A DNA stretch of 64,000 nucleotides from Anthopleura xanthogrammica (Eukaryota > Cnidaria > Anthozoa > Actiniaria > Actiniidae): assembly GCA_964019055.1 (NCBI GenBank), contig OZ025212.1, forward strand, positions 12,795,391-12,859,390. Reading direction: 5' to 3'. The translations under genes were made by a program, and so were the position numbers. Below are positions 5,623-54,235 of the stretch, in pieces (the stretch's first letter is position 1; each line of letters starts with the position of its first letter). The notes beneath the pieces are model-generated. The model saw only the letters and a program-made list of their open reading frames with translations, did not search any database and had not been told where the DNA came from.

Positions 5623-7488
5623 CTTATTTTAAAACATTTGACAATCAATAAATAATGATGAAGTAGAGTTGATGTAAAAAGTTACGTGTCAATATGCTTC
5701 GTAATCATCAACATTTTCATTTTCATCAATGAAGGATTTTACGCGCTGTATTAGACATTTAATAGTGTGTTTTAAATAACCTTTTTAAAGTGCCTATACC
5801 ACCTCTGACAATATTCTCAGTATTATTCTACATGATGAGGTTACCCTGCTTGATATTCTGTCGAGCATTCCGGTGAAGTTGCAACACAGACTCAGACCAT
5901 GTCAGCTGATAAAATCACCGGGCTCGTTAATAGTCAGTGGCTATTTTATATCGTGACATGCGTGAAAATTCAAACTGGTTTTAAGGGGTTTAAGACCGCT
6001 TGTGAGTTAATTCAGTATTCGTCCAGAGTTTTGGATGGCTTCGAGCAGATCCGTCCAGAGGTTTCCTTTCCTTCTTCTTAGAAGAGAGAAATAAAGAAAC
6101 CTCTGCCAAGCAGGATAACATGGGGACCAAATATACATATATATATATGGTTTGAATGATGCGTCTTGAAATTATGAAGGTTTATCCTCGTCATATGCTA
6201 ATGACTGTGACGTCAAAATAGTCATCATTTTGAAAATATACAAAACTCCACCGGTACAGATAAATTAAATTTGGAAAGAATCACTTTTTCACCCACGGCT
6301 CTCATAAAAACTATTGCTAACTAGTTTCCGCATAGCAGCCAGTGTTTCCAGTTACAAGGAACAACAAATAAACATAAATGACTATTTTGACGTGACAGCC
6401 ATTAGCATACGACAAGAAAAACCTTTAAGACGAATCTTCAAACTATATAATTTCTTTGGTCACTGAACAGCTCATCTCGTGTAGAATCTATACTAAAAAA
6501 TATTATCAGAGGTGGTATAGGTCATCATGATCATTAGCATAATCATCGTCATCATCATCGTCAACATCATCATCACCGCACCGCCACCACCACCATCACA
6601 AGGCATGTCATCACCATGAAAAGACGACCTCTTTAGACCGTATCTATTTTGCTATTTCAGACCACTTTAGAGAACTTTAGTCGACCCAATATTTTAGAAT
6701 ATCAAGTGGTACGATTTCTTTCCAATTTTTTCTCATTACTCCAAAGTGATGTACCAGCAGCTTTAGATAAAATTAGGAACCGAAAACAGGTAAATTGACT
6801 ATTTTTCATGCACGACGTTACTAAATTATTTTGTTTTTGCAAAATTTCTATGCTTCAAAACTTCAGCTTCAAATTTCTCGAAAAAGCTCTCACAGATTTC
6901 CTTCAAATTTTCTGAACCTTGAGCAAAGTACTCATCCTCCAAGATGTTAAGCGCGATTTAAAAACTTAGGTCAAAAAAAAAATATGGAGAAAATAGGCAG
7001 TCAAGAAAACGCACTACCTCTTCACAGGGGTTTTATATTAATTCTGATTTCATTAAAAACCTACTCATTCGAAAATTTCATCTTTCTCTTAAAGCCTTGT
7101 TAAATCCCCCCCCCCCCCCCCCCAATTGTTTGCGTCTATATGCGTATAACTTCCATTAATGGAGGCACTTTGTGTTCACTCTCCCTCCTTCCCCTAGTAT
7201 ATCATCGACTTACTTGGGGGAGTTTCTGTGATGGCTTCAGGATCATATCGACGCCGTCCCCTCTCCATATGTGATAACTTGAATAACACTGAATATATCT
7301 TTGAAGAGAAGAAGGCAAAAAAGCCACTCAATTCCAGCTGATTCAAAGAGTGTTGAAATGCGAGTAGCAGTGGTCAAGAAACCTGTAGACAAATATCTCG
7401 TGTTTTACAAACAAATCGTACAAGCGAGGCTAAGAGCCTGTTTACAAACAGGTAGGGTAACCCTAGTCCAACCAGGATCAATAGATAA

Positions 7489-18300: not shown

Positions 18301-21300
18301 GTCGCTGTCTGACCGGCAGGGCAATCTGTAAATAATACACATCTTCATATAACTATCACGCCAGAATACTATAGTTAACAATTAGTCCTCGAGTCCGAAT
18401 GGCCTACGAGTTAATAGCCCATGAGGCCCAAGGCCGAATGGGCTATTGACTCGTAGGCCATGAGGGCGAGAGGTCTAATTGTTTTAGTAAAAACCTACTA
18501 ATCGGTCCAATAAAAGGATGCAAAAAGTTTTGGATTTTGCTTTAAATATATATTTTTTGGTTTTCAAAACCGGCGCTTTTCGCTACTAGAGGTCTATCAC
18601 TAATAGACCCCTAGTAGCTCAGCCAATCACAGGGCTCGATTGGTGATAGACCATTAGTAGGTTTTTTCTAATTTCCAATAGTTCTCTGTTGCGCAGGGTT
18701 AGTCTCGATTTTGTGTAAAATATTATTGTGTTCAGGTGCGTTGAAAGTGTTTGTTCATTCTATACTTTACCGTTGGTATTTATGAATATTCTGACACTGA
18801 AATGAGTATAATCCATTTATCCTCCTTTGATCTGCCTTATAACCATTATCGTTGAAGTGCGACCCTCGACGTTTGATGTCTCGTTGGCCAACTAGCATTT
18901 CGACGGCCGTCAGTCGAATAACTTAACTAGGAAAATTACATTTTGAGAGAAATTTTAGACTGAATTAGAAGTTTTAGACGAAATGGAATTAAAATTATTA
19001 ATTCAGTCCAAAATCTCCCTCAAGATGTTTTTTTTTTTCCTTTTGCAAACGAGACATCAAACGTCGCGGGCCACACTTCAACGAAAAACGGTTATAAAAT
19101 GAGATTGCTAGTTCAATCTTCAAAACCAACTCATTTCAATACCTACCACAATCAACCTTGGTGTTATTTCGGTCATAAAACTCAGGCTTGCAGTGGTTGC
19201 AGTAGTTCATCCTACAGCGAGCAGTCGGGTTCGCTGGACACTTGGCGCATGCGCATGAATCTCCATGCATACACATCTTGAACTGTTGTCCCTTTGGACA
19301 CGCTGAAATACACCAACAGAATCAATCAGAATACAGTTGAAGCAAAATTAAGTGCGCACTTTTTTTCTTATGAACGGCTGATATGATCTTTTACAGAAAA
19401 AAAAATGCATGATCAAGAGATTGGTCATTCTTATAACAGGGACACATTTAGAGCCCAAAGTCTCCAGGGATATCAGCAAAAAAAATTTTTTTTAAAGATA
19501 ATCAAGAGAATGACAAGTGGTTCAAAAAGGGAAAGGCAAGCATTACATCCAAAAATCTCGAGATTATAGGTGAAAAAATTAAAAAAGGAAGAAATAATAC
19601 TCAAGGTAATGACACGCGGATGAAAATGAAAAGATGGGAACCCTTTGTCGAATTTTGTTTGTGAATTCTGAGGAAACTCCTGACCTGGTTTTACTGGTTT
19701 TACGCAGGTTTTTCCGTGTCCACTGTTGCAGCATTTCTTTACTCCATCACAGTCCCCATCAGATTCACATGAGGCCAAACTCTTGGAAGGAGCTTCACTT
19801 GGGAGGACTGGGCATGAGCCTGGTTTGGGTACAGCTGAAAAACAAGAAAAAATATAATGAATAACTAATATGAATAACGAATGAACAAAAAACAAAAACA
19901 AGAAACGAAAATGAAACAAAAAGATAAGATAAAAAAAGAAATACAATAAAGCGAAAACAAAAAAAACAAAAAACACACAAAACAACAACGAAAAAAAGAA
20001 GCCAAAAAACAAACAAAAAACAAAAAAAATTAACCTACGAAAAATGCCAAAGCAATAAGAAACAAAACAAATAAGACAAACACTAAAACCGACAAAAAAT
20101 GTGCAAAAATAAACAAATAAAAACTGGTAAACTAAACTAAGATGGATTTGTTTTGCTGGTCATCCATCCATTCAGGAAATGTTTATCTATCCGGCTAGTT
20201 GCCATCACTAATACATACATGATATAGTACAGTTCGATAGTTTCCCCTTGGTTTTAGTATTTTTACGAGGAATACCATTCATCTTTACACACCAGCAGAC
20301 ATCTCCCACGCACTGGATCGGTGAGAATTTGCCGTCTCTCTGACACTTTGGCACGAAGACCCTCTTGGCGAGCATTTCAAGGTGTTCAACCTTTCTCCGA
20401 CATTGTTTCTCTAGAATGGATGTCATGTGAGATGAAAGGTGTTGAAAATAATTCCAGTTCTTTGTGCTTCGGGATGTCCCGTTGTTTCGGGACGAAGACC
20501 CGTTGCTTTGCGACCACTTGGACTGGAATGTTGAGTTTCTTCGAGAGAACGCCACACAAGAAGCGCTAACCTTTTCTACCAGATTTTGAATGGCATTCAG
20601 TCTCATTAACGCTTCTCGACGGGAAACTTGACAACCTGATAAAACTACAATAGCAAAATTACTCAAGGCGTATTTATAAACTTTAAATTACAAAAAAATG
20701 AAATATATTTATCTACAAAACGAAAAGAAGAGACGGACAAAATAATAATAAAAGGTTACAAAACTACAAAACAATCTATGGTAAAACTTGAGCCGGCGAT
20801 GTGCGTGCGCATAACTTAATCAGCTTATAACTGGTCAGTGTGGACCCATATTCGCATGTCATTGTGTGACGCCGTTGATGACGACTCGGCGCATGCTCAA
20901 TGGGTCACCGATCGGAGCACTACAAAAACAAAAGCCAGTAAAGCGAGAAAGGCTTGCGGAAATATAGAAACGACGAAAAGGGACCTCTGCTAACACGGTA
21001 CTCATTAAAGAAAGATGGTTCAAAATTGTAGATTTTTACCTGGCTGTGATCCATTACACGATGGTCTTCCATGGCGCATGTGTCGTCTTGTATTGTTTCT
21101 CTCATGTCCATGTTCATCTACACACCAGCACTGTCTCTTATCGTAGCTACACTGTGTTGCAGAAAATCTTCCATTTTTCGTGCATCTTGGAGTGTGGTGA
21201 TGCAGCAGCGAGGTGGTTCCAAGCATGTGAGTCAAACGATGGATATGACAAGGAGCATGAACTGTTGAGTTTGAGATGAAAAAAAAAATCAGTGATGAAA

Positions 21301-24300
21301 AAGCACTAAAGCTCTTTCTTTATAAATTTTTTATCGTAACATTGAAAATTGAAGCTATTTACTGTGATACAAAAAATAATGTTCGTGATCCCTTACCCTT
21401 AACGCAGTCAAGCTGGTTGCCATGAGAATCGAAGAATTCTGGTCTGCACGTCCCACAAGTGTTAATACGGCACGTGGCGTTCTCGTGACCAGGACACGTG
21501 ACTAGTCTGCAAAGCATGCTGGGACAGTTGTTCATCATTGGCTTGTCTTTAGGGCAAACTACAAAGGAAAAGGGAGTTGGAGTAAAAATACATACTGACA
21601 ATGCAAGCGGGGGAAGTAACAATCTTACCTGACTGGATAGTCGTATTTTTGTACTTCTCGCAGGGTAGGTTGAAGCACATGTTCTCTTTCAGGAAACCGT
21701 GTTTACCATGATGACCGTGCTTGCCATGATGACCGTTTTTACCATGATGACCGTGCTTGCCATGATGACCGTGTTTACCATGATGGCCGTGCTTGCCATG
21801 ATGACCGTGTTTACCATGATGACCGTGTCCAGCATGATGACCGTGTTTATGATGACCGTGTTTACCATGAGCATGATGACCGTGTTTGCCATGATGACCA
21901 TGTTTACTATGATGACCATGGCGACCACGTCTACCATGTACGTCGCTTCCATTGTTTTTGTCATCATTTCCAACGTCATCATAAACATCATTATCGTAAT
22001 CATCACCACTATCATCAAAACTACCATCTTCTCCACCACTGTCATACATGTCACTACCATCACCATCATTAACAGCATCATCATCAGCATCAGCATCATC
22101 ACCAACATCTTTAGCACCACTCACATCCATATCATCATCACCACCATCATCATTACCATCATCAACGGCATCATCATCACCACCAACATCTTTAGCACCA
22201 CTCACATCCATATCATCATCTGCATCATCATCATTACCACTGAAATCTTCTTGATCGTCAACATCATCGCCACTGAATGCATCGTCACCATCACCTTTAG
22301 CCTCATCATCATCATCACCACTAACATCATCATTGGCATCATTGTCACCATCACCACTACTACCTCTCAAGTCATCACCGTTGTTGCTGCTCTCATCATC
22401 TCTAGTGTCATCATCACCAGCCACATCACCACTATCGTCATAATCGTGGTCATCATCATCATCATCATCAACATCGTCATCATCTTGCATATCATTGTCA
22501 CTGTTTGTATCATTACTAGACTTGTCCTTCGTTATCCAGTTTCTTTCCCATCCTAGGACAAAAAGAAAGCAGTCAGTCATGTCAAAAGTATATCTTTCAA
22601 ATAAGTTATACACTTTTTTAATTCAGTAAATGGGAAAGAGATGCTTGTTTTCTCTTTTCGTCCCTGTGCTTCGATCGAGGGTACTTCTCCAGGTTCTTTG
22701 GTTTTCCTCCCTCTGCAAACATCAACTTATAAATTCCAATTTGATCATGGAACGATTGCCAGAAGTTTGCTAGCCACTGGCTGTGTTAAATTTACAAAAA
22801 CGTTTAGGGCAAGAAAAACCATGAAGAAATATATTTCATTACTTCAGCAGACGAAAGATGCCTCTTTATCTTATCACATTACCATAAGAAGGTGGCCTCA
22901 AAAGAGGTTTCAAACAAGATTCTCCACATCCAGTCCAACAGCACTTCAAGTCTCCTGAACACTCATGATCCGCAGTACAATTACTTGGGCAACTGAGGGA
23001 TTTATTTCCGTGTCGATCAACAGGGAAATTTGGTCTTGGGCAGAAACCTTTCTTCACTGGTGGGCAAAAATGTGAAAAAATGTAAATACGAATACAAAAA
23101 ATAACATAAATAGTACATACAAAAGACTGACCGACCAACCGACTGACCGACCGACCGACCGACCGACCGACCGACCGACCGACCGACCGACCGACTGACA
23201 TGACTGACTGACTGACTGACTGACTGACTGACCGACTGGCTGACAGTGGTTCCGCAGAGTGGCTCTTCTTCCACTGGATTCCAATTGGAATTTAGAATTA
23301 AGCTTATAAGATTAATTATATCCATTTTGAAATCACAGGTGATTCCTGCAACCTGATTGGCTCCAGCAGTGCGATTTAATCACAAATCAGTTCAATTACC
23401 ATTATAAATCGAAAATATGATTAAATTTTTCACATGAACAACTTATGCGAATTACTTACCAGGAATGCATACATAGTTGATTTTGATGTACTTCACTTTT
23501 CTCACACATTTTTTACCGAGCATTCTTGCATTTACTGCCAGTAAGCAGCGGTGCTTTCCTTCACATCGCTTCTTCACTTTGTGAACAATTTTCGTCCTGT
23601 TACATCTTGTAGCATTGGACGTTTCGTTGATCGTCGAGACGTTCTTGTGTGGCTCACAGGTTTTACATTGTTTGATTGGTTTGGTACCAAGGAAAATATT
23701 TTTGAGAGAGAGAACTCTTCTTTTGCCACAAAGCAGCTGGGTTCTTTGCTTAGGGCAGACGTACTTGGTTTGAAATGCTTTGAAAACAAACCGAAAAAGT
23801 ATTTATATTTTCAATATTTTATCAAACAATCAAACAAATAAACAGAAAAATAAGCAAATAAACAAACTACCTTATATGTAAACAAACAAACAAACCAACA
23901 CACAAACAGACAAAAAATATGAGTGCAAACGAACAAACAAATGAACGAACGAAACAAGCAAGCAAGATAGCAAGCCGCAAACAAACGGTAAACAAGTAAA
24001 CCAAGAATGACAAAGAAAAACAAGCAAGACAAGTAGCACTGACAAATAAACTGAAGAGGCTAACAAAGAAAAACAAACTTACAAGCAAACAAACAATATA
24101 CAAATAATCAATAAACAAACAGACGAACAAGGAGGCGGATAAAAACCCCGAAAGTTTTAAAATACCTTTTTTCTTGGAACATTTAGACTTTCCCTTGGTA
24201 AACGAATCGTGTTTAGATTTTCCTTCTTCATCCACGTTCCAAGACAAGCCCACAGCAGGCCATGTTTGTACACAACTATAGCTGCCATCAATGTCACATC

Positions 24301-28658: not shown

Positions 28659-28664
28659 TTTATT
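28659..28664 (-). terminator. candidate poly(A) signal of the selenoprotein L gene
   Basis: AATAAA on the minus strand, about 40 nt beyond the SECIS hairpin. It is placed so that the mature 3' UTR keeps the SECIS. Confidence 0.5.
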
Positions 28665-28704
28665 CAAAAAAGGATTTAATTATATATATTTTAAACATAC
28701 TGTA

Positions 28705-28766
28705 CTGATCTCCATCAAGCAACACCCACAAGTTTCTTGTTTAAGGCATTGCCATCATCTACTCAG
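28705..28766 (-). promoter_or_regulatory. SECIS element (form 2) in the 3' UTR of selenoprotein L
   Basis: On the minus strand an outer helix (CTGA/TCAG) and internal loop lead to the non-Watson-Crick quartet, UGAU at 28757-28754 facing UGAU at 28717-28714 (U.U, G.A, A.G, U.U). A nine-pair helix follows (GGCAATGCC with GGTGTTGCT), then a bulge TTAA supplying the unpaired AA, then a ministem ACAAG-AAA-CTTGT. This is the layout of a form 2 eukaryotic SECIS. It lies 57-118 nt downstream of the TAA, in the same exon. Confidence 0.9.
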
Positions 28767-28822
28767 CATTATAAATTAGTTTTTATATGTAAATATATTT
28801 AACAAATTATCCATTATTCATT

Positions 28823-31765
28823 TTATTGAAGAGCCTTGACCAAATCCTCCACTGTTGGCCTATCTGTTGACACTTTACTTCGATAAACAAGTTTCATGTT
28901 GCCATGGTAATCAATAATAAAGTCACCACCCATTTGTGAAGGATCATCTTCTTCAAATACACCAAAAAGCTTCCTTCCTTTTCGTTTCTGTTCAGCATAA
29001 TAAATCAAGGCAGTTGTACACCAGCTTTTTGAGACTGACCTGTGAAGCCCTAGTGCTTGGTACAGCTTTCTTTCATGGTCGATAAACATTTCAAACTTAC
29101 AGTTGGTTTGTTCGAGCCATTTCTTTGCTCCTTCCTAGAAAAAGAAAGCAAAAAATGGAAAGCTAAGATTGTACTCTGAAAGCTATGAATATTAAAATTG
29201 CCAAAATTATAGTGCAACAGGCCACCTGGATTCTTCCAGCCAATCATGGTCTAGTTTTTAGGTCAGATCCTGGATTTTCTTCAGGGATGGGTGCAGTGAA
29301 GTAAGGGTACAAAATCGACCGAGGGGAGGGTATGCACCCTTTGCACCACTCCCCTGGATTTGCTGCTGTTATTAAAAGCCAATGAAAAAACCTGTTATCC
29401 TTATTCACCACTGCAAGTATGACAGTGGCACAGCATAAGGGGGTCGAACTGAAATCAATGTCAAGGTGCCTCTTGCAGCTGCTATACAGTCCATGTATGA
29501 TCCCAGGGTACAGCTCTAACCAGTTTGAATTAGTTAGGGTCAGTTTGAGTGGAAGGAGGAAAAACCAAAGAGCCAGTAAAACCCTCAGAGTCAGAAGAGA
29601 ACCACCTAACTTGGCTCACATGAGGTTACTGGGATTCACACCCTGGATCTCAGAGGTGAAAGGTAAGTGTTTTACTATCATGCCATCCTGACATGATGGT
29701 AATCATATATTTTTTTGGAATTGTAAAACTTAATAATAATTTTCCAGTTGTTAGGTCTACTGGGAAAAAATGTAAATGGAATAATATGAAATAATTACCA
29801 GGTTTCCAAAGCTGACAACTACAGTGTGACCATTTTCTGCTTCAAGCTCCTTCCTTCGTGACTGAACTTGAGCAACATGGTCACGTCAAGGAAGTCAAGC
29901 AAAGTGCCGAAGGAGAATCAAAACCAGGCTGGAGCGACCAACAGACTTGAGTATGTCTTTTATCAGGCAATCCCTGAATGATTGGATGGAAGTAAATTTT
30001 ATATTACATGTGGCAGAATGTAGTTAAAAAATTAATGAATTGAAAAAGGATTTAAAATGAATCATTGTTTGTAAAAATAAACTAATGGCCAAAATGGATG
30101 GATAAAGTTCTGAATGAATAAATAATCAAGTAAACTTGGATGGATGGATGGATGGATGGATGGATGGATGGATGGATGGATGGATGGATGGATGGATGGA
30201 TGGATGGATGGATGGATGGATGGATGGATGGATGGATGGATGGATGGATGGATGGATGGATGGATGGATGGATGGATGGATGGATGGATGGATGGATGGA
30301 TGGATGGATGGATGGATGGATGGATGGATGGATGGATGGATGGATGGATGGATGGATGGATGGATGGATGGATGGATGGATGGATGGATGGATGGATGGA
30401 TGGATGGATGGATGGATGAATGGATGGTTGGATGGATGAATGGATAGATGAATTGATGGGTGGATGGATGGATGAATAAATGGAAGAATGGATGAATGGA
30501 TGGATGGATGAATGGATGGATGGATGGATAAATAAATGGATGGATAAATGGATGGATGGATGGATGGATGAATGGATTAATAAATGTAAGGATGGATGAA
30601 TGGATGGATGAATGGATGGATGGATGAATGGATGGATGGATGGATGGATGGATGAATGGATGAATGGATGAATGGAAGGATGGACAGATGGAATGGATTG
30701 ATTGATGCATGGAATGGATGTCTGGATGGATGTATGGAGTAATAGATGGATGGAAGTTGGACAGATGGATAGTTAATAGGCAGATCAATAGAATATTCAT
30801 CCCTCTCCACTTCTTCTCTACCAAGCACAAAATGGATCAATACATCCATGCCAAATAAAAATCTCACTCACCTGTTTGACCTCACATCTGTTAACATCAA
30901 GTCACAAGGGCCTGGTGAACCAATTATCAGCTCTTTCCTACTTTCATCTCCACCAACCAGCTTTCTATCAACCTCTTCTAAAAAGTTATTCCATTCATGT
31001 TCCAAATCCATCAGCCTATCTGTGCTCTCCACCAGATCTTCATCACTGTAATACTTCCCAATTTCCCTCTCCATTTCTTCTCTGCCGATGACTCCCAAAG
31101 CACAGAATGCATTATAGTAATGTCCAATACCACTGCTCATTCTCCTGACCTTATCACTGACAAACTCTTCAAGGGATGCTGCAAAAACTTTTTTTGCATC
31201 AACAAGTAAAGTTGACAGACATTCTTGTAGTTTGTTTATTTCCTTAATAAATGTTTCTTTGGTGACTGGAGTTTTGTGTTCCTATGTTAAAACATAAACA
31301 CATAATACTTAAGAATAATTCCTCATAGTCAAATGTTAGTGAAAACTCTTAAATTCACATCTATATTGAAGAATTTCAAATATTTAATTTTGTATTCATG
31401 ACATTTTTGTTGTTGTTCTTTCCATTTATGGGGACGACTAATTGATCTGCTTCTAAGTGGGGTGGGGAGGGGGGGGGGGTACGGTCATGTGACTTCTTGA
31501 TGCAAATCAACAAATGACCAAAGTTCAAGGAAAAATTCAAGCTCCATAGTTCCCTTTTGTAAGTCATTTGATAAGCTTAAAATGTATGGAAACATGTTCT
31601 CAAGTCACCGTTTCTCTCCACAAATTGCGACCGATATTCCTCTAAAATTTTTTATAGCTGCATTTATGTCAAAGAATGACTTAAATAGGCCTTTTATACC
31701 TGGCTTACGTCATCTTCGTCTTGTTTTTTAGGCTTTTTCGCCCTTGGTTCCTCCTCATCTGACAT
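28823..31765 (-). CDS. SelL: selenoprotein L: peroxiredoxin-like, UxxU redox motif
   Basis: Four coding exons, 31700-31765 (the exon itself may begin at 31822), 30872-31281, 29799-29973 and 28823-29134, total 963 nt: 320 residues if both TGAs are read as Sec. Splice phases (0, 2, 0) match. The C-terminal 160 residues form an AhpC/PRXL2-type thioredoxin fold: [20 protein letters not shown], then [54 protein letters not shown] and [16 protein letters not shown]. Two in-frame TGA codons (29895-29897 and 29886-29888, residues 185 and 188) occupy the CxxC positions seen in cysteine homologues. A UxxU motif capable of a diselenide bond, described from aquatic animals, defines selenoprotein L. The SECIS at 28705-28766 supports recoding. 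The N-terminal 150 residues are helical; the start [14 protein letters not shown] is chosen as the first ATG, but the frame is open upstream to the acceptor. Divergent neighbour: UBR7. Confidence 0.9.
29886..29897 (-). other. SelL: tandem selenocysteine codons TGA-CTT-CCT-TGA
   Basis: The codons read U-L-P-U. The flanking sequence (LLRHFA before, [11 protein letters not shown] after) is conserved with the 'LRH..C..CR.H.AQL' block of AhpC-TSA_2 proteins, so the TGAs lie exactly at the two redox cysteines. The exon is bounded by good splice sites at phases that need this frame. Confidence 0.92.
30138..30700. repeat. (TGGA)n microsatellite, perfect core with decayed flank
   Basis: About 70 perfect TGGA units (30138-30417) followed by about 280 bp of interrupted units. 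It lies in the intron between SelL exons 30872-31281 and 29799-29973. The Met-Asp-Gly-Trp and Ile-His-Pro-Ser ORFs are repeat artefacts. Confidence 0.95.
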
Positions 31766-32134
31766 AACACCTTTGGAACCTCTTGAACCGGAACATCTGC
31801 ATTCAAAGGCAGGCGTTCTTTTCTAACACAGGAACCCCAGTACAGAATCAAATATTTTATAAAAAGTGACCCAAACGTTTGCATAAAAACTATCAAAAAT
31901 AAAAAAAATTCATAAGAATTGCATTAGTAGCTTTTCTTTTATATTTCTCTTATTTTTTAAAGACTATTTTCGAATAAAAAAAACTATTTTTGAATAAAAA
32001 AAGAGTTGCTTAGTTTTGGCCGCGGGAGTCTGGTATCCATCCCATTTGGCGCCATTTTTTTTTCATAATAACTTTGAAAGAAGGAGGACGAATCGAACGA
32101 TTTCTTTTATTTCTTGTATTCTAACCTTTGCAAA
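31766..32134. promoter_or_regulatory. shared intergenic region between divergent SelL (-) and UBR7 (+)
   Basis: Only 369 bp separate the two start codons. The stretch holds the 5' UTRs, a likely noncoding first exon of SelL and 'ggcgccatttttt' at about 32048-32060. No TATA box is evident at a fixed place. A bidirectional promoter is inferred from the geometry. Confidence 0.5.
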
Positions 32135-35100
32135 ATGGATAAGGGAGAACTAGGAGAAGACGTTTTATCCATGGTGGATGTTCTTCAAGAGGATAATGAT
32201 TTAGAAGAAGAAGCGAATGCCGTTTTTGGCGATGGCGATGACCAGCAATGCACATATCACAAGGTACTAGAACCTTCCTTTCAACTTAATTATATACTTC
32301 AACATTTCATCGTCTTCAATCAAAAATTGAGCTTTTTATAGAAGCTATGTGGCCCCGTTTTTCTGGTTTAACAGATGTAAGCTTAAGCATACAAATTATA
32401 AACTTAAGCTTACATATTAAAATATAACTCTTGCGAATTAATGAAGGAAAAATTAAAGGATAGAAGAAATGAAGAGAGAAAAATACGAAAAATCAGATAA
32501 AAGAATTACTTAAGTAACAGTATACCAAATCTATAATAATAAGTGTACCTTTAATAACCAATTCCTATAATATTTTTTAATAATATCTTTTTATTGCCTT
32601 TTTATTTAGGGTTATGCGAGTCGACAGGCCTTGTATTCTTGCAGTACTTGTGTTCCTCCCAGCGCAGAACCAGCAGGCGTGTGTCTTGCCTGTAGCCTAA
32701 CCTGTCATGATGGACATGACCTGTATGAACTCTACACCAAAAGGTAGATAGACTATATTGCTGGTCTGCTGCTGTGAAGCATCCTGGGACTTTTGACTCA
32801 ATGAAATAACACCAAACAAAAGACATTGTGGTTTGCTGTTCTTTTGTTTGGGGTTATTTGATTGAGTTAACAGTCCCAGAATGCATTTCCAAGGCACAAT
32901 GCTCTTTTCCATAGTCTTTCCACAATCCATTATGATCCCAGCGCGAGCTCGAGGTCAGGGTAAAATTTGCATATTTTTTATGCATTTTTATGCACATTTT
33001 ACCCTGACCTCGAGCTCGCGCTGGGATCATAAGGGATTGTGGGAAGACTATGGAAAGGAGCATACAGTTATTTCAAAAAAGGTTGGTGAAGGTTTTGTTG
33101 CATGTTGCATGTTGAAATAGCTGTGGTCTAATGCATGTGTCCTGGATTTACAATATAAAATGCAAGATGAATAAAGGCATTTAAACTTTTGTTTAAATCA
33201 TCATTTTTTCATTAGGAATTTCAGATGTGATTGTGGTAACTCAAGGTTTGAAGGAATCATGAAGTGTAAACTTCGTCCTGTGAGTATTATATACTACTTC
33301 CATGCAGTTATTTACTAAGTTGACTGACTACTTTTGAACTTTCAATTTGAGCCCAAGATGCCGCATGCACCAAAACTGTGTAAAACCGCTTAATAAGCTA
33401 AGGGGGGGGGGGGGGGGGGGCATAAGGGGAGAAAAAGAAAAAAGTAAAAAAACGCAATACAGCAACACTTGCTTTGGTCTTGCATTTACTAATACAGACC
33501 ACACAGACTTTTTTCACCGATTACCCCGGCCTAAGATTTATAATAACCGCATAGTCTTGTCAAACTGCAATACGTACTGCAAGTTAAAATAAAAATTACT
33601 GTAGAACCACACCAAAAATAAGGGAATAATACATCAGCCCTTATGTCCCCCTACACTAGTCATCTATCTGCCCTTGAAATATAACACTGTTGTGAATTAT
33701 ATAATTTTAGGACAAGGATACAACAAACAGTAAAAACAATTACAATCAGAACTTTAGAGGAGTATACTGCACATGCCATAAACCATATCCTGACCCTGAA
33801 GATGACGTGAGTGTTAATGGTTATGAATGGACATACGATTATTAAAGTACTACAGACTATGATCAAAGTTTTGACTTGCCTTTTTTATGCATGGATTGGA
33901 AGACCTTTGATCGTGAAGTGAAATGTCACTTTCCTTTTTCAAATATCTTTTTTCCTTCCAAAGATATTGAAGTTTAAAAACTGGCGGCAATTGTTCCTGA
34001 TGACGTCATACATCTATTCTCAATACGTGACTAGCCTAGGATTACGATAAGCTATATCTCAGCCTAAAGGTCCCATTATCAAAAATTGGAGACATTAAAA
34101 TTTGATTGTAGTAGCACTTTAATAATTTCAGTTGTTTTGATTATATGTAAATGCAAGCCTCAATTTTATACTAATACTTTGCTTTGATTTGTTGAAGATT
34201 GAAGATGAGATGATACAGTGTGTAGTCTGTGAGGACTGGTATCATTCAAGGGTAAATATTCATTTTCAAGAATGATTACTAAGGTTCTTGCCATCTATTT
34301 TGCTTAGCACCTTTGTTGTGTGTGAGTTCATGGCCTTTCATCATGCACAGGGCTTACTGTCCTTCTACTCTAACCGCGGTCACCCAGAGTTCGTTGAGTA
34401 ATCAGATTACGACTGAATACAAAAACAAGAACAATATAATTCAAGTTCATACTTCTGTGCACGGTTGTTTTACATTAAACGACAATTTCTATGGCTGGAT
34501 TTTAATAAATAAGGGTTGTGTAAAAACTCGTAATCTTATTGGTCAACGAACTCTGGGTGACCGCAGTTAGAGTAGAAGGACTGTAAAATTGGCCACTCAG
34601 TCGCCAGTCATAATGACTGGCGAAATTAGTTTTTCCTCAGTCATACCTTGTTTCTAGCTCAACGTTACTGGTCAAAATGACCGGCAAGGCAAAGATTTGA
34701 CTGGACAAGTTCCAATTCTGGCCAGACATTGTCCAATGACTAGCTGTTATTTTAAGCCCTGGTGAGGCAGCTTTGTTGATTGGCACAATAAATTTCCCCC
34801 ATGTAGCCTCACATTCAAGCACTTCAGGATGAGGTTAGGTGTGGTTGAACAAAGGTTTTTATTCTCATGGGAATAAACATGGCACTGTGTGATAAAATTC
34901 CATGAGTTCCATGTTATTTTTTGCAGCATCTTGGATCTTTGCCACCAGCTGGTGGGGATTTCCAGGAAATGATCTGTGACGCATGCATGGAAAGATGTCC
35001 ATTTCTGCAGGCTTACTTGTCTCTGTCAGGTATGTGACTAGATTAGAATACTGAGGCTTGATACTATCAGCTTCCTGGCATGGCAGGTGATAATGGTCAC

Positions 35101-36244
35101 CAGGAAAGCATGAGTGGTGTTTGCTGGCCTGGTAATGCACTACTACCTCTCACCAATATCCATAGGTGGGTTCCAAACAGAAACACAAATCAATTTGATC
35201 AAACCCTGAAACAGCCTCTGGGCTGATCTAGGTCAGGGCATGGCTAACTCACAGATTGAACCCTGAAACAACCTCTGTGCTGATTAAAATCAAGCACACC
35301 TAACTCACAGATTGAACTCTGGAACAACCTCTGGGCTGATCTAAGTCACTTGAGGCACAGCTAACCTACAGATAGCACTCTGAAACAACCTTAGTTGATG
35401 GAGGAAAACTGGAGAACTCAAAAAAAGCCCCTCAAATCAAGTGAGAGACCTCAATTGACATGTAATGCCATGTCCAGGAATCAAACCTAAGATCCCCAAA
35501 GAATAAGGGCCACAGGTTTGTTAACCACTGGCTAGTAAGTAAAAAAATGATGATTTTGTTTTCACAGCACCAAGCCAAACAGGTCTTGGACCAAGCCAGC
35601 AAGTAATAACAAATGAAGAAAAAGATGTCTCAGTAGATGTTGTGAAAAGTGAAAAGACAGAGACTGAGACTACAAAGACAGGGCCAGGAAGTGCCACAAG
35701 TGAAGTGAAAACACAAGACAATGAAAAATCACCTGTGAAGGTGAGATAATAGCAGAAATATCAATAAAAAGGAATAAGAGGTGAATAAGTGAATGAATAA
35801 ATGGAAAAAAAGCAAGATTGGATGAATGAATGAAACAAAAAAATATTGGTAAATTCAAATGTAACAGAAGAAAATAGAATAGGGATAGAATAAAAAAATA
35901 ATAGGGAGAGAAGAATGGAAAAAATTAAATGAATGAACAAATGAATGAATGGAAATAAAGTGCAAGAAAGAGAAGTTGTATGGATCATTATAATGTTATA
36001 ATGATTTATGATTTATATAGCGTCCTTTCCATATGTATATATAATCAAAGGCGCTTTACAATCATCAGAGGTGGTTAGTATAAGGTGTAGGCACTGAGGG
36101 TGGTCGCTGCCAGGGTTTCTTTATGCCCTTAGTGGTTCTTTTACGTCCCTCCAATATTGGTTAGTGATGAAGTGTGGAGGGATTGTGGTCATCCCAGCCA
36201 CTTGAAAGTCTAACCGTTTGTAGATGTAATTACAAAGGCAGCAG

Positions 36245-36281
<37 letters not shown>

Positions 36282-39200
36282 TTTATAAATACTCCAGTTT
36301 CACATTCGATGGAAACCGCTGTTTTTGAAGACCACAGACTCATTTGTACAGGCTTAGCCTCGCTTATAAGTCAGCTATTCAACGACATCATTAAAAGTCT
36401 GTGGGATTTCAAAACATTGGTATTGTTCAACTTAGACATTCTTTACATTACGGTTGAGCCAACTGTAATGTAAAGAATGTGCAAGTTGAATAATACCAAT
36501 CCCACGGACTTTTAATGGTGCCTTTGAATAGATGACTTATAAACGAGGCTAAGCCTGTACAAATGAGTCTGTGGTCTTCAAAAACAGCGGTTTCCATCGA
36601 ATGTGAAACTGGAGTATTGAGAGGCAGCGTTGTATCAGATAAGTGGATATAGTGCTATAAGTGTTTTGGTTGAGCGAGCAAGAGTTTGATATCTTTTTCA
36701 GTTCAGTGGTTGATGGATGTACATGAATAACCTGGATTATAAAAGTGATATCATTACATGGCATCGATGGACACACTTCCCCTAGAAAACTGAATTCTTT
36801 CCCATGTAAACCAGATTAGACCAGATTCAATTGTTCCTGCCTGTCATGGCTACTATCACATGATGGTGCAAAGCCTCTATAGTAATTTTTGAAATTTTTG
36901 TTTTAGGGAAACACGTCAAACCAAACTGCACCTTCACTTTCATCAAATAATGAAACTGAGAACCAAGCCAATGGCGAAGATGATGATACCAAGAAAGATA
37001 CTGTAAAGGATGATAAAAGAGCTGCAGAATGTGACTGTAAATTAGTTCAGTTGCAGGCCAGTGTCACTGAAATTCGAAATGCTGCTTCTTTCTGGAACAC
37101 TGGCTGGCGAAGCCAGTTATGTACTTGTGACAGCTGTAAGGTACAGTAGATGAGACACACTTACCTTCTAATATCCTTGGGCTAGTCAATGTTAGGGCAT
37201 GGCTAACTCACAGATCAAACCCTGAAACAACCTCTGGGCTGATCTAAGTCAGGGCAGAATTAATTCACAGACCGAACCCTGTAAAAACCTCTGGGCTGAT
37301 CTAAGCCAGGGCATGGCTAATTCACAGATCTAACCCTGAAACAAATATATTTTTTCAAGGACTTATATAGTTCACTTGGTGTCTCCTTCCTGATGGACCA
37401 ACAAGACACCATAGTGGCTTACGAAGAAAGAGGAAAGCAAGCCCAGGCATCAAAGATGACATCCTATGAAAGTGGTATGCAAGCGCTGGAGGGTATGGGA
37501 AGAATTAACCAAGTGGAAGCAATCCATGGTAAATACAACTTATACATTCAATTGACGTTGTTATGGGTAAGGGTATATATGGTACTAAGTTTGTCAGTAG
37601 GGTGTTGGTGGGTTGTCAGTAGGGTGTTGGTGGGTTATTAGTAGGGTGTTGGTGGGTTGTCAGTAGGGTGTTGGTATGTTGTCAGTAGGGTGTTGGTATG
37701 TTGTCAGTAGGGTGTTGGTGGGTTGTCAATAGGGTGTTGGTATGTTGTCAGTAGGGTGTTGGTATGTTGTCAGTAGGGTGTTGGAGGGTTGTCAGTAGGG
37801 TGTTGGAGGTGGTCAGTAGGGTGTTGGTATGTTGTCAGTACAGTGTTGGAGGGTTGTCAGTAGGGTGTTGGAGGTTGTCAGTAGGGTGTTGGTATGTTGT
37901 CAGTAGGGTGTTGGTGGGTTGTCAGTAGGGTGTTGGTAGGTTGTCAGTAGGGTGTTGGTATGTTGTCAGTAGGGTGTTGGTGGGTTGTCAATAGGGTGTT
38001 GGTATGTTGTCAGTAGGGTGTTGGTGGGTTGTCAGTAGGGTGTTGGTATGTTGTCAGTAGGGTGTTGGTGGGTTGTCAGTAGGGTGTTGGTATGTTGTCA
38101 GTAGGGTGTTGGTGGGTTGTCAGTAGGGTGTTGGTATGTTGTCAGTAGGGTGTTGGTGGGTTGTCAATAGGGTGTTGGTATGTTGTCAGTAGGGTGTTGG
38201 TATGTTGTCAGTAGGGTGTTGGTATGTTGTCAGTAGGGTGTTGGTATGTTGTCAGTAGGGTGTTGTCAGTAGGGTGTTGGTATGTTGTCAGTTGGGTGTT
38301 GGAATTTTGTCAGTAGGGTGTTGGTATGTTGTCAGTAGGGTGTTGGTATGTTGTCAGTAGGGTGTTGGTGGGTTGTCAATAGGGTGTTGGTATGTTGTCA
38401 GTAGGGTGTTGGTATGTTGTCAGTAGGGTGTTGGTATGTTGTCAGTAGGGTGTTGGTATGTTGTCAGTAGGGTGTTGGAATGTTGTCAGTAGGGTGTTGG
38501 TGGGTGGTCAGTAGGGTGTTGGTGGGTTGTCAGTAGGGTGTTGGAGGGTTGTCAGTAGGGTGTTGGAGGGTTGTCAGTATGGTGTTGGTAGTTTGTCAGT
38601 AGGGTGTTGGTGGGTGGTCAGTAGGGTGTTGGTGGGTTGTCAGTAGGGTGTCAGTGGTTGTCAGTAGGGTGTCGGTGGTTATCAGTGGGGTGTTGGTAGG
38701 GTGTCAGTAGGGTGTTGGTAGGGTGTTGGTGGGTGGTCAGTAGGGTGCCCCCTTATTTCTCGCAATGAATGGATTACTACTGTACTTAGGATGAATCAAG
38801 TCTAAATAAGTAACTTTCAACTCTTCAGGATATAATGACATGAAGAATGAACTCACTGAATACCTGAGGGAGTTTGCTGATCAAGGAAAGGTACTAACTA
38901 CTGTATTCCTAGTCTGTTTTATTTTCATTTACATAATGGGAACTTCACACACGATTCCTCAGGCTAACGTAAGTTATATTGAGGATAGCCCGGAGGAGGT
39001 TAGGGGTCAATAACTCCTGGGAGTGATGGTGGTGAACATCGCTGATGGGAGGTTTGTGAGGCATGCTCTGAATTGGTTTTGATCTGAAATATATCTTTTT
39101 ATACGAAACGACCTGATGTGGTGGGCTTGGGTTGGCATGCTAAGTCAACCTACTGTAGGAAAAAAGGTGTTCTGTGTCGAGTCCCTAGAGAAAATAGTTA

Positions 39201-39802: not shown

Positions 39803-40891
39803 TGACTATGCCAGACACGACAGAACTGTTGATAAGATACGTATACTGTACCTTTGAATTAGCCAGTAACAAAACAAGCAAGGGGCTGGGTCCGATTTTT
39901 AAAAAAACTCATTTAATTAAGGTTCCAAAACAAATGACCCCATCACATGAAAGAGCAACATACATCAACCTTACTGACCAAGTTTCAGGATGTTTGACGT
40001 TATAGAAAGAATGGTATAAGCATTCAAGCACTGCCAAAATTACAGATACATGTATGGTGTCCCTCCAAACGTCCACAGCCACACATACATTCTCTGTATT
40101 TTAGAAATTAAAAAAAATATCGTAATTTCGTTTCATTTTGCCCAAAATTGATCAAATTTTTGATTCTGACTAATTTTTATGTGCTCTTTCTTATGGTATG
40201 ATTTGTTTGTGAATGAAATCAAATACTCAGTCCCAGTCCCCTGCTCGTTTGTTACGGGCGAATAGAAAATAGTGTCCTCAGAGAGGACATCAGCATGCGG
40301 TAGGGTGGTCATACTGCTAAAGGTAACTAGCTTTTTCTGGTGACAACTTGGGAAAGAAAATTTAAAAAAACTTGTCCCTAGCACCAATATCTATATCCCC
40401 ACCCCTAGACAGCCCGAATTTAGCAAAACCATAGTCCCATTAAAAGTTTGGAAAAAATCCCATTCTTATGATTTATGCTAGAGTTTGGGAAATTTTTCTT
40501 TTTTTCTCCCTATATCAACATATCAATATTTTCTAATGTATTTGAACTGTCGCATCTTTATGCCTGTGTCAAGTGCTGGCCTCTAACCAGATTGTCAGTA
40601 GCGTCAGTTTAAAAAAAGAACAAAAACAGGACATGTCTTCCCAACAGTATCCAAGAAAACAAATGTATAAATAATACTATATACTTAGCATTAGTTTATT
40701 ATCAATAAGAAATGTTGTATATTTAGATTAAGAGATGCTTTTTGTAAAATGTTGTGTTTGTGCAAGAGAAATTCCAAGTGCACTTTGGAGAAAAGAATCG
40801 TAGTTTTTACCTGCCTTCTCAAGCTCGCAGTTTTCGTCATGACAAAAAGCGTTTTGTTGGACAACAAACAGAGAAGTGTTGCAAGGCCGAC

Positions 40892-42165
40892 TGTGTTCTT
40901 GGGTGGCGTGGATGGTGATCTCGGGTAGCGTTGACTGTGATCTTGGGTGGCGTGGCCTGTGATCTTGGTTGGCGTGGACGGTGATCTCAGGTGGCGTGGA
41001 CTGTGATCTCAGGTGGCGTGGACTGTGATCTTGGGTGGCATGGACTGTGATCTTGGATGGCGTGGCCTGTGATCTTGGTTGGCGTGGACTGTGATCTCAG
41101 GTGGCGTGGACTGTGATCTCAGGTGGCGTGGACTGTGATCTTGGGTGGCGTGGACTGTAATCTCAGGTGGCGTGGACTGTGATCTTGGTTGGCGTGGACT
41201 GTGATCTCAGGTGGCGTGGACTGTGATCTTGGTTGGCGTGGACTGTGATCTCAGGTGGCGTGGACTGTGATCTCAGGTGGCGTGGACTGTGATCTTGGGT
41301 GGCGTGGACTGTGATCTTGGGTGGCGTGGCCTGTGATCTTGGTTGGCGTGGACTGTGATCTCAGGTGGCGTGGACTGTGATCTTGGGTGGCGTGGACTGT
41401 GATCTTGGGTGGCGTGGCCTGTGATCTTGGTTGGCGTGGACTGTGATCTTGGGTGGCGTGGACTGTGATCTTGGGTGGCGTGGCCTGTGATCTTGGGTGG
41501 CGTGGACTGTGATCTCAGGTGGCGTGGACTGTGATCTCAGGTGGCGTGGACTGTGATCTCAGGTGGCGTGGACTGTGATCTTGGGTGGCGTGGCCTGTGA
41601 TCTTGGGTGGCGTGGACTGTGATCTCAGGTGGCGTGGACTGTGATCTTGGGTGGCGTGGACTGTAATCTCAGGTGGTGTGGACTGTGATCTTTGGTGTCG
41701 TGGACTGTGATCTTTGGTGTCGTGGGCTGTGATCTTGGGTGGCACGGGCTGTGATTTGGGTGGCGTGGACTGTGATCTTGGATGGCGTGGACTGTGATCT
41801 CGGGTGGCGTAGACTGTGATCTCAGGTGGCATGGACTGTGATCTCGGGTGGGGCGGACTGTGATCTTGGGTGGCATGGACTGTGATCTCGGGTGGCGTGG
41901 ACTGTGATCTCGGTGGCATGGACTGTGATCTCGGGTGGGGCGGACTGTGATCTTGGGTGGCATGGACTGTGATCTCGGGTGGCGTGGACTGTGATCTCAG
42001 GTGGCATGGACTGTGATCTCGGGTGGCGTAGACTGTGATCTCGGTGGCATGGACTGTGATCTCGGGTGGGGCGGACTGTGATCTTGGGTGGCATGGACTG
42101 TGATCTCGGGTGGCGTGGACTGTCATCTTGGGTGGCGTGATCAGTCATCTTTTGTGGTGTGGACT
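40892..42165. repeat. 22-bp minisatellite, consensus GTGGCGTGGACTGTGATCTCAG
   Basis: About 57 copies with variants (cttggg, ctcggg, cctgtg). Because 22 is not a multiple of 3, each frame reads a 22-residue repeat, and on the minus strand frames stay open for long stretches (His/Ser/Pro/Thr-rich). The minus-strand GPCR frame runs into it. Confidence 0.93.
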
Positions 42166-43192
42166 GATCTGGAATGGCGTGGTGTATCATCTTGGTTGGC
42201 GTAGAATGCAATGTCATCCGGGGCGTCATTGAGTGTATTTTCTCTCTTCTAAGCCAAGAAAGTTTGCCCATCATTCTTGTACGAATTTTTGACAAGCGAA
42301 AAGAGAAGATGAGTGGATTGATGAGAGATTGAATGTGGACGAGAAAGACTAAGATATGATGAAGTTCTGCGATAACATCATTTTTCCATCCCTTTCCTTT
42401 TGCGTAGATGATGGCTTTCACTAACACTAAAGGACAATAGAATACTACCGATGTTAAAACTACTATCCCTAAAGTAAATGTACGTCTGTATTCCTTGATT
42501 CTTTGCTAGTTTGAGCATCGAACAGCCCTTCTTTGATCCATGATAACTTTCATGTGACGATGTGCTGTTGTGCTCACTTTGGCCGTGCAGCAAAATGTTA
42601 TCACGACCATTACCATGTTCACAGCACTTGGCGCTGTGACTCGTCTTGGTTGAAGATAATTGAACTGATTTATCCTAGAAACAATCAGTCCTACACCCAT
42701 TACCACCCAGCTTATTCCAGTAGCTAACATCAGCTTTCTAGTGGTAATCTTGCTGAGGTAAAAAAGAGGCTGTTCAATGGACAAGTACCTTTCGACGCTG
42801 ATTATCAATATGGTAACGAAGGACCATTCTCCGAGCAACAATGCTAGAATCGAGTAGGCGACGGGCAATTTACATGTCGAATATTCGCGTATCCAACATA
42901 TGTTTAAAAAAATAAACAGTGGGTATACAAGAAGGCCCACTAACAAGTCTGTCAGGGAAAGAATGGCAAGCAAGAGGTTGTAGCGGGCAGAGCGAAGCTG
43001 TTTACATTCAAACACTGTCCAAATAATCAGAAGATTGATGGAAATCGCTGGCAACGTGAAGATAGCGGTGAACACTGTAGTGAAGGTTAAGACAGGAAAC
43101 GCTGATCTTGGGAAGTATTCTTGAAGTGTTTCTGAAGGAAATTCCAATACGAATTGACAGTCTGAAGGCGGTTTGGGTGTTGCGTTCGCCAT
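41822..43192 (-). pseudogene. class A GPCR interrupted by an amber codon, tail encoded by a minisatellite
   Basis: From ATG 43190-43192 the frame encodes TM1 to TM5 of a rhodopsin-family receptor: NLLIIWTVF, LSLTDLLVGLLVYPLFIF (TM2 Asp), CKLPVAYSILALLLGEWSFV and ISVERYLSI (E/DRY-type), and a TM4 Trp. TAG at 42506-42508 then stops it in the third intracellular loop (RRAVRCSN*QRIKEYRR). The same frame continues without a shift through TM6 (LGIVVLTSVVFYCPLVLV) and TM7 (HIQSLINPLIFSFRL, the NPxxY position). It then runs into 22-bp repeats and ends at TGA 41822. The frame is clean apart from the amber, so this is a recent pseudogene, a segregating nonsense allele or a base error. The ligand is unknown; the sequence resembles the expanded cnidarian amine/melanocortin-like receptors. 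Confidence 0.75.
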
Positions 43193-44263
43193 TGCTAGCT
43201 TGTCTTCAATTTAAACGAGAACTTCTTTACCACCACAATAAGGTAACTAGCTAACAGACTTTAAAACCTAGAAAATATCCGTATCATGCTCAAGGCACTC
43301 GTAGGTCTGGCTCAATGGGATTTAAAGGAGGGATCCTTGACAAACATCAAAGAATTAACCGAAAGCACTGGTGGATAAGTGAATACCAGTTTGAACCAGA
43401 TTTCGCCGACTTTATAGCAACCGCCTTTCTGAAGATTAAACTTCACAGGTGTCAAATAATAGTGTCTTGTAGCTCACTAAAAACGTAGAAAATAGATGCA
43501 ACTACAAGTGGTTAATAACTTGCGAAATTATCAAGTTGCTTTTAGTTTTTTTTAGTTCCAATTAGTCGCGAAAGCCTCTGCCTTCGGTTTCGATCTTGAA
43601 GTTAAATAAATCAATCTTTATAAGGCTAAGAAATTCAGTCTAAAATAAAGAATATTTTAGAGGAATGTCAGAAAAAGTTTGGAATCCTTGAAAACAAAAT
43701 GTTATAAGATCCAGAACTTTAAAAAAAATTCCAATTCTATCTGGCAATCTGGTAACGAAAACTTAGATACTACAATAGTCAAGATACTGCAAGACATTTA
43801 ATACTACTTGCCTGCTCTTCGATGAGAAATTTAGGACAGTTTTTTTCGACTCTAGCTTAACGAACTTAGTGCGGTCCCAGGGAGTCTAAAACAGCGAAAG
43901 AGCTTGAAATTTTGGATTTTGAAGGGCATTTGGAAGTCGCTTTCTTCGAGAGCCTACCCCGGGCTCCAGAAGTTTCTAACGGGTGAAAGGGTTAAGTGAG
44001 CGAGCGCCGAATTAAAAACAACCCCATGAAAAGGAAGAAGAGAAATTTCCAGAAAGGGTTATTTTAAGAAAGACTTCAAATCGAGGAAGAAAAAACGAAA
44101 GATATCCAGGATAATGTGTTGATGACATCGAAGAAAGTATATAATAATGAAATGAGATGGGAAATGAAAAGAAAAACTTTATTAAAAAAGGGTATCTTGT
44201 TCGTACCAAAATCAATAAGAAAAAAATACATACTCTATATTTGTTTCGAGATGTCAGATGATA

Positions 44264-52293: not shown

Positions 52294-52821
52294 TCAGTTC
52301 ACATCAGTTAAATTCCTTATGAGTGTCTGTACTCTGTTTAAAACTATTTCATTTGTGCATCGGCAGCAGTCAGCCTCATAAGGAGGATCAATCCACAGGA
52401 CTCCCATAACGCATAAAACACCATCATCTGTTCCTTCTACTGGAATACGATTCTTCTTCAACCATTCTTCGAGCTTAGCTTTCCTTTGAATCAGTTCGTC
52501 CTCGGAGTAAGACTTGCAGTTCGCAGCCTGGAATATGTCTTTGAAATTTGGTTTTTCTAGACGGGAATCGTCTTGATCGATGATGATCGAATTGACGGCG
52601 TGACCCATGAGGAACATCACAGAATCACTGGTCTTGACGAGTACATCTTTCGATAAAATATCTTCTTTCACAGGCAGAACCACGACACAGTAAGTAATAG
52701 GATCAATAGTATAAACCCAGCCAACTATTCTTCTGTTATCACATAGAGTTATAGTTACTTTTTTGTCGACGAATTTTTGAAGAGAAGTTGGAGATAGTTT
52801 GGTGAAGTCATCGGCCGCCAT
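52294..52821 (-). CDS. GEMIN6: GEMIN6, SMN-complex Sm-fold subunit
   Basis: A single-exon frame of 175 aa (human about 167). The N-terminal Sm-like domain reads LQKFVDKKVTITLCDNRRIV then GWVYTIDPITYCVVVLPV and MGHAVNSIIID, matching the vertebrate 'GWVLTTDPVSA..V' and 'IMGHAVQTV' blocks. The C-terminal half has CKSYSEDELIQRKAKLEEWL, KKNRIPVEG, LCVMGVLWIDPPYEADCC and NEIVLNRVQTLI, the Gemin6 hallmark region. Gemin6 pairs with Gemin7 in the SMN complex that loads Sm proteins on snRNAs. The ATG at 52819-52821 follows 'ccaaacaaaatggcggcc', a Kozak-like context. It has no introns, unlike the other genes here. Confidence 0.93.
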   Translation of the reverse strand: MAADDFTKLSPTSLQKFVDKKVTITLCDNRRIVGWVYTIDPITYCVVVLPVKEDILSKDVLVKTSDSVMFLMGHAVNSIIIDQDDSRLEKPNFKDIFQAANCKSYSEDELIQRKAKLEEWLKKNRIPVEGTDDGVLCVMGVLWIDPPYEADCCRCTNEIVLNRVQTLIRNLTDVN

Positions 52822-54235
52822 TTTGTTTGGAGATAGACCCAGTCCCTTTGTGCGCAGTCGGTATTTGGATACGAGACTTTGGCCCCCTCGACCACGCCCT
52901 ATGATAGTGGGGCGGGGGTACAGACCTTAGAAATAGAAATAATACTAAAAATGAAACAATGATAAGGAGAGACAGACAGACCGACAGACAGACAGACAGA
53001 GCAAAGGAGAGAGACAGAATGAGTGAATGAATGAAACTTTATATTAACACGGAATTTCATCAAATTACAAATTTGGCTTCCATGAAAGCCGTTAAATAGA
53101 TAGAAAGACAGACAGACAGACAGAGACCCAGACAGTCAGGCAGACAAACAGACAGTCAGACAGACAGATAGATAGATAAATGAATATATAGATATGTGGA
53201 ATAGGATTTTAATTTATTTTTAAAAGTAGCTAGAGATGGAAGAAGGGGACACCAAAATTGGAAAATAAGAGTTGGGAAGGTAAAAAGAAATGGAAAAAAA
53301 GTAGGATGCAAAAGATATGAAAATATTAAATTCATATTTATATTAGCAACAACAACAATAGGTTTCTGCAAAATTTTATTTTTAACCTAAAATAAAAAAT
53401 AGAGTGCAAACAAAATATCCGTGAAATACAAATTACTAAATAGTACAAAATAGTGCTAGTTAAACAATAGAAAACAATAGAATTTTTACAAAATTGCACT
53501 ATTTAGTATAACTAATGTTTCATGGATATATTGTTTGCACTCTAGTATATTAAAATAATGTTAATAATAGTTTTATTTTGGATTCTTTCAAAATGTTTAA
53601 TTAGGTCTCAGCATAGTTATTTTTCATATACTTATATCATATTACTTGGTTAGTTATTAGTCATATATTAGTTATATATCACGTGGTTATGTGATCTCGG
53701 TATCATTTCAATTGCGTGTAGATAGATATTCATAGCAGTGTAGCTAGTCTGTGTTTAAAGTGCATATAAGGGTTCGCCAGTTTGTATTTAATATGAAAGT
53801 TCTGACCCTAAAAATCACATCAATAATTTTTTTTGGATTCTGTTGCGATTTCATTATTTTTTTGATGGTCAAAGTTGGTAAAACGAAGTAAAAAGCCAAA
53901 AGATCTTGGGAGCCTGGGACTAGTTGCTGGTGATGCCATTTATGGGACTCCTTATGGAGGGCAAGGAGGTTGTTTGTTTTACACATAGTCCTTCTAGTTG
54001 TTGAATAAACCTCCTTTTTGCCAAACTGAGTGGCATGTGTTGCCTGTTATGGTTCAGAATATTTATTGTCATAATTTTATCCTTTCTGACATCTGGGAAT
54101 TCTGAAATAGTACTACTATATTCACCATTTTCAAATGTAGGCCATTGGTTACACAATAGTTAATTAAGATTGGAAACGGTCACTCTGCTCCATAATTTAA
54201 TTTGCATATCTATTAGGAATAAATTATGAGATTCC
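52822..54235. other. intergenic region
   Basis: It contains (GACA)n runs (52970-53005, 53105-53170) and MITE family 6 copy B (53399-53546). Short ORFs at 53744-54156 have no domain signal. Confidence 0.55.
53399..53546. mobile_element. MITE family 6, copy B
   Basis: 'tagagtgcaaacaaaatatccgtgaaata' is opposite 'catggatatattgtttgcactcta', with inner arms 'aaattactaaatagta' and 'actatttagtataact'. Confidence 0.8.

Follow-up and report, generated by a model that had tools for sequence, protein, structure and literature searches.

Does a peroxiredoxin-like gene crossed by two in-frame TGA codons, found in the genome of Anthopleura xanthogrammica, encode an intact selenoprotein L (SelL) in which both codons are read as selenocysteine (Sec), or is it a decayed or truncated relative? 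The gene lies on the minus strand of a stretch of 64,000 nt (the window; C7:12795391-12859390) in an assembly of 289.8 Mb and 125 contigs. The SelL family and its two-Sec motif reportedly go back to Shchedrina et al. 2007. A preliminary description of the locus had drawn on the paired Sec of SelL in aquatic animals, and the citing literature bears this out in its available text: the two Sec are two residues apart and are inserted with one SECIS element (PMC3316567, PMC3541580), and an aquatic distribution and a diselenide are described (PMC2397514). SelL is also called peroxiredoxin-like in an excerpt of PMC2398784, and Table 1 of PMC3473315, in the part available, has one SelL each for the sponge Amphimedon, the placozoan Trichoplax, the sea anemone Nematostella, the annelid Capitella and amphioxus (Branchiostoma), while Lottia lacks an entry. 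Here, we consider it highly probable that the locus is an intact animal SelL (SELENOL) gene, for which both UGAs would be decoded as Sec via one SECIS to give a U-L-P-U protein, with the selenols acting, by analogy, as a redox diselenide pair.

A four-exon gene with two in-frame TGA codons

Four exons with GT-AG borders join on the minus strand (31765-28823) into a 963-nt frame of 320 residues that ends in TAA, and the TGAs at residues 185 and 188 are the sole stops upstream of that TAA. Coding exon 1 (31700-31765) runs from the ATG to the donor GTATAA and gives 22 residues, with an N terminus rich in lysine and acidic residues. Exon 2 (30872-31281, 410 nt) supplies an N-terminal region that aligns with long SelL homologues. 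Exon 3 (29799-29973, 175 nt) holds the motif RHFA-TGA-LP-TGA-RDHVAQ, in which the codons at 29895-29897 and 29886-29888 are the predicted Sec185 and Sec188, and exon 4 (28823-29134, 312 nt) carries the remaining peroxiredoxin-like domain and the TAA (28825-28823). At the three introns, every one of them GT-AG, the running coding length is 66 nt (phase 0), 476 nt (phase 2) and 651 nt (phase 0). The exon boundaries and their phases, the residue numbering and the two TGA positions first reported all match our recomputed spliced frame, and the observation of a complete two-TGA gene is confirmed; transcription and splicing of the gene are predicted from the genomic sequence.

The TGA frame of exon 3 has no other stop, and the remaining two frames have two and four. 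As had been argued, the flanking phases compel this frame if exons 2 and 4 keep their conserved frames. An isoform that skips exon 3 was considered and rejected, given that the loss of 175 nt shifts the frame and runs into stops. Cryptic splicing around both TGAs within exon 3 is possible: 36 GT/AG pairs spaced by 30 nt or more would excise both codons, 12 of them at a multiple of three, as plain sequence matches unscored as splice sites. Intron 2 contains a (TCCA)n microsatellite of approximately 154 copies (30137-30754, minus strand), for which we suppose no functional role.

Candidate SECIS element and selenocysteine machinery

One eukaryotic SECIS of form 2 is predicted in the 3'UTR (28703-28768, minus strand), with the reservation that its Rfam score is below the gathering threshold and with its location in the transcript taken from the gene model. 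The AUGA core at 28758 lies 64 nt past the TAA. Nine pairs without a mismatch make up helix II (ten counting an extra U-G), and the element further comprises an AA-bearing bulge, a 5-pair ministem (ACAAG/CUUGU), a UGAU on the 3' side and a closing helix I, so that all of the form-2 features (AUGA/GA core, helix II, AA bulge and ministem) are present. RNAfold assigns it -23.6 kcal/mol, compared with -15.03 on average for shuffled sequence (sd 2.38; z = -3.6), and none of 200 shuffles was as good. A strict descriptor, which asks for nine or more mismatch-free pairs, an AA within the bulge and a TGA on the 3' side, was composed after the element was seen and is hence biased towards it. It has a single match over both strands of the window, namely the SECIS (span 28758-28714); when the 173-nt stretch is shuffled, it matches 1 of 3,000 versions, and when one 64-kb strand is shuffled, none of six. 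A looser no-mismatch descriptor matches eight of the 3,000 short shuffles and two of the six 64-kb shuffles (one match each); with one mismatch permitted, the window has four anchors on the plus strand and six on the minus strand.

Rfam SECIS_1 aligns end to end at 28768-28703 with 26.4 bits versus a gathering threshold of 35 (E-value 0.0019 over 173 nt, 0.054 over 5 kb). Across the whole window, every Rfam family stays below its gathering threshold. The SECIS_1 alignment spans 54 to 120 nt past the TAA, in agreement with the form 2 SECIS originally placed at 57-118 nt. An AATAAA hexamer resembling a poly(A) signal, by sequence match only, lies 3' of the SECIS (28659-28664, minus strand), and an ATTAAA starting at 28680 on the same strand is a second such candidate.

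The assembly was also searched for the machinery that would serve this element. The best of 21 matches to RF01852 scores 79.5 bits, and ARAGORN identifies it as a tRNA-SeC whose anticodon is TCA. Among the other 20, all weaker, a single match is over the cut-off (47.1 bits); ARAGORN calls this one and the next two tRNA-Ser (3 of the 20 checked). In a control, all 14 bacterial and archaeal genomes match at a loose threshold and 5 of the 14 are over the cut-off. The weight thus rests on the strong score and the anticodon, and not on a match as such. SepSecS (PF05889) has eight matches over its cut-off, all at C9:534534-552291, which cover profile positions 29-252 and 329-388; positions 253-328 were not found among the genome matches. 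Half of the eight cross stop codons, a pattern that can arise when exon-by-exon matches extend into introns. The PF05889 control matches 3 of 14 genomes: those of two methanogens and, unexpectedly, that of Bacillus subtilis. Given the tRNA-Sec and SepSecS matches, the host very probably makes Sec. Two C-terminal SepSecS matches with internal stops, downstream of the others (C9:547147-552291), look like repeated or decayed exons.

Family membership and competing readings

The NCBIfam model SelL_rel_redox (NF040769) matches residues 166-318 at 135.8 bits, over its cut-off of 120, and Pfam places AhpC-TSA_2 (PF13911) at residues 197-302 (56 bits, cut-off 27) and AhpC-TSA at residues 172-251 (37.1 bits, cut-off 26). 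The locus thus combines an AhpC/TSA_2 domain, a UxxU-spaced UGA pair and a predicted 3'UTR SECIS, as SelL membership entails. The identification as selenoprotein L, already proposed from the sequence, is supported by the family profile, the homologues, the motif, the SECIS and the host Sec machinery.

Protein-database searches returned four homologues for the full protein and 11, the four among these, for an alignment (A1); the nearest protein has 43% identity across 92% of the query. The 11 come from a starfish (one), snails (three), amphioxus (two) and short contigs of 1.2 to 2.3 kb (four), and one is a JGI record named peroxiredoxin that is probably bacterial. At the two redox positions, four records have tryptophan twice (P0004, P0007, P0008 and P0009), as expected from UGA translated as Trp, judging from the protein records alone. 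Three have cysteine twice (P0001, P0002 and P0011), being either genuine Cys forms or records in which Sec was entered as C; the starfish P0001 and the snail P0002 are among the nearest homologues, and their cysteines count against our reading. In the remaining four (P0003, P0005, P0006 and P0010) the motif is absent, with gaps of differing size around the site, and P0010 also lacks most of the N-terminal part. Such losses would fit gene predictors avoiding UGAs, and they are in line with the prediction that annotation would be damaged at the TGA. An Ensembl survey agrees (PMC12822975): in its available text, <1% of Ensembl SELENOE, SELENOL and SELENOJ genes are well annotated, and of the transcripts that Ensembl gives for vertebrate selenoprotein genes, almost 22% omit the Sec exon or the relevant part.

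Several further searches for relatives came back empty. Residues 1-184 alone, aimed at truncated annotations, gave zero homologues at E <= 0.001 among 169 candidates, which we count against the main reading. For relatives outside animals, scans with two short peptide patterns each matched 75 stretches of viral_contigs and 26 of genome_contigs, with none confirmed in either, and tblastn of P0001 versus phages gave no match. Given that the contig scans used two short patterns each, they do not conflict with the published marine bacterial relatives.

Conservation bears on whether the gene is functional. Identity with the Patiria homologue is 67 of 132 aligned residues 3' of the TGAs versus 51 of 156 before, and the identity share is greater after the TGAs than before in all 11 homologues, which is unexpected for a pseudogene or for a protein ending at the first TGA. 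We reject as extremely improbable a pseudogene in which two Cys codons of a CxxC peroxiredoxin-like protein have turned into stops. The three C..C records would suit such an origin, but the 963 nt contain no further stop or frameshift, the GT-AG borders are intact, conservation continues past the TGAs, and both stops are TGA, sit on the redox positions and have a SECIS downstream. Recoding of UGA as Sec is generally inefficient and here two codons must be passed, which, with the modest Rfam score of the SECIS, lends some weight to a gene in which translation mostly terminates or decodes just one of the UGAs as Sec, leaving a 184-residue truncated protein as the main product and the full protein as a minor one. 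We regard this as unlikely, given that the conserved domain sits past the UGAs and that published SelL inserts two Sec with one SECIS in the accessible text of PMC3316567 and PMC3541580.

A different doubt concerns the family rather than the decoding. SelU belongs to the AhpC-TSA_2 proteins, and SelU-type proteins have a single Sec or Cys; the gene could sit within the PRXL2 (SelU-like) branch of these proteins, outside SelL proper. The Pfam domain is common to both, two of the snail homologues bear the source name peroxiredoxin-like 2C, and the best solved chain is prostamide/prostaglandin F synthase (20.2 bits, E 0.0026). Moreover, all 12 rows of an alignment (A3), which contains both the query and the distant P0011, match the SelL_rel_redox model at E <= 0.001 (an E-value criterion, not the cut-off), so a match alone is not narrow. 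However, the query exceeds the cut-off of that model, its extended N-terminal part can be aligned to that of the other long homologues, and it has paired TGAs, in contrast to the single Sec or Cys of SelU-type proteins. This placement is very unlikely, and SelL proper remains our reading.

Compared with published SelL, we see the same predicted Sec pair, single SECIS and peroxiredoxin-like character and no difference of kind. The SelL of Amphimedon, Trichoplax and Nematostella in the available part of PMC3473315 (Table 1) belongs to the same family in early-branching animals, a likeness by listing and not by sequence. The UxxU SelW of amphioxus and Ostreococcus, in the excerpt of PMC7539508, likewise has paired Sec in a redox motif but belongs to a different protein family. 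Hence, the gene is an ordinary addition to a published family; earlier papers already cover the family, its motif, its one SECIS and its occurrence in early-branching animals. The value of the locus is that a SelL gene, of a kind often damaged in annotation, is here cleanly resolved in genomic sequence, with its exons, phases, SECIS and poly(A)-like hexamer, and the motif missing in 4 of 11 homologous records shows what form that damage can take. Little is new beyond this.

Proposed mechanism and surroundings of the gene

In the mechanism that we propose, the mRNA would present two UGAs whose first bases are nine nucleotides apart, within the active-site loop of the peroxiredoxin-like domain, and the single 3'UTR form-2 SECIS would guide tRNA-Sec to both. 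Sec insertion at both UGAs, which the locus itself suggests, would yield a protein of 320 residues bearing the motif U-L-P-U. To judge from characterized SelL, the selenols of Sec185 and Sec188 may join in a diselenide and act as a cycling redox pair, and the protein would then react like a thiol oxidoreductase or peroxidase.

The position of the UGAs could also matter when decoding fails. They end 96 and 87 nt upstream of the last exon junction, and a stop more than 50-55 nt before the last junction, by the usual rule, exposes an mRNA to nonsense-mediated decay. Failed Sec insertion could therefore trigger decay and make the mRNA level sensitive to selenium supply. A full selenium-gated switch, in which scarce selenium leads to destruction of the mRNA and ample selenium to a diselenide protein of very low potential, reduced by a system yet to be found, is speculative and in our view rather unlikely. 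We know of no established diselenide reductant. In the available text of PMC2397514, diselenide redox potentials are described as very low and reduction as difficult, and it is raised as a possibility that aquatic organisms possess diselenide-reducing systems.

Upstream of the gene, 370 bases from its start codon, a divergent plus-strand gene appears to begin at 32135 (32135-37640). Its exon-like pieces, in open reading frames at 32078-32341, 36907-37149 and 37321-37641, presumably resemble UBR7; a Pfam search of the three pieces gave no match. A long imperfect inverted repeat of approximately 110 bases within this interval (32777-32886), which several plant and animal microRNA precursor models match below gathering, is perhaps a small palindromic transposon. 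Tandem arrays with a 22-base period occupy 37591-38747 (approximately 50 copies) and 40889-42202 (approximately 60 copies), and the latter overlaps an open stretch that continues the frame of a rhodopsin-type receptor (7tm_1, 42509-43210 minus, 46.5 bits).

Elsewhere in the window, all on the minus strand, a 602-codon open stretch (3815-5623) matches otopetrin at 128.6 bits, a Gemin6-like open stretch lies at 52297-52926 (Gemin6_C 83 bits, Gemin6 46.5 bits), and a reverse-transcriptase fragment lies at 55699-56829 (RVT_1, 63.7 bits). The last adjoins a long array of a 4-base unit, visible in the open frames at 55030-55649. At 20211-23291 on the minus strand, adjoining open stretches match a thyroglobulin type-1 domain (50.5 bits) and a WAP domain (37.8 bits) and are perhaps one secreted multi-domain gene.
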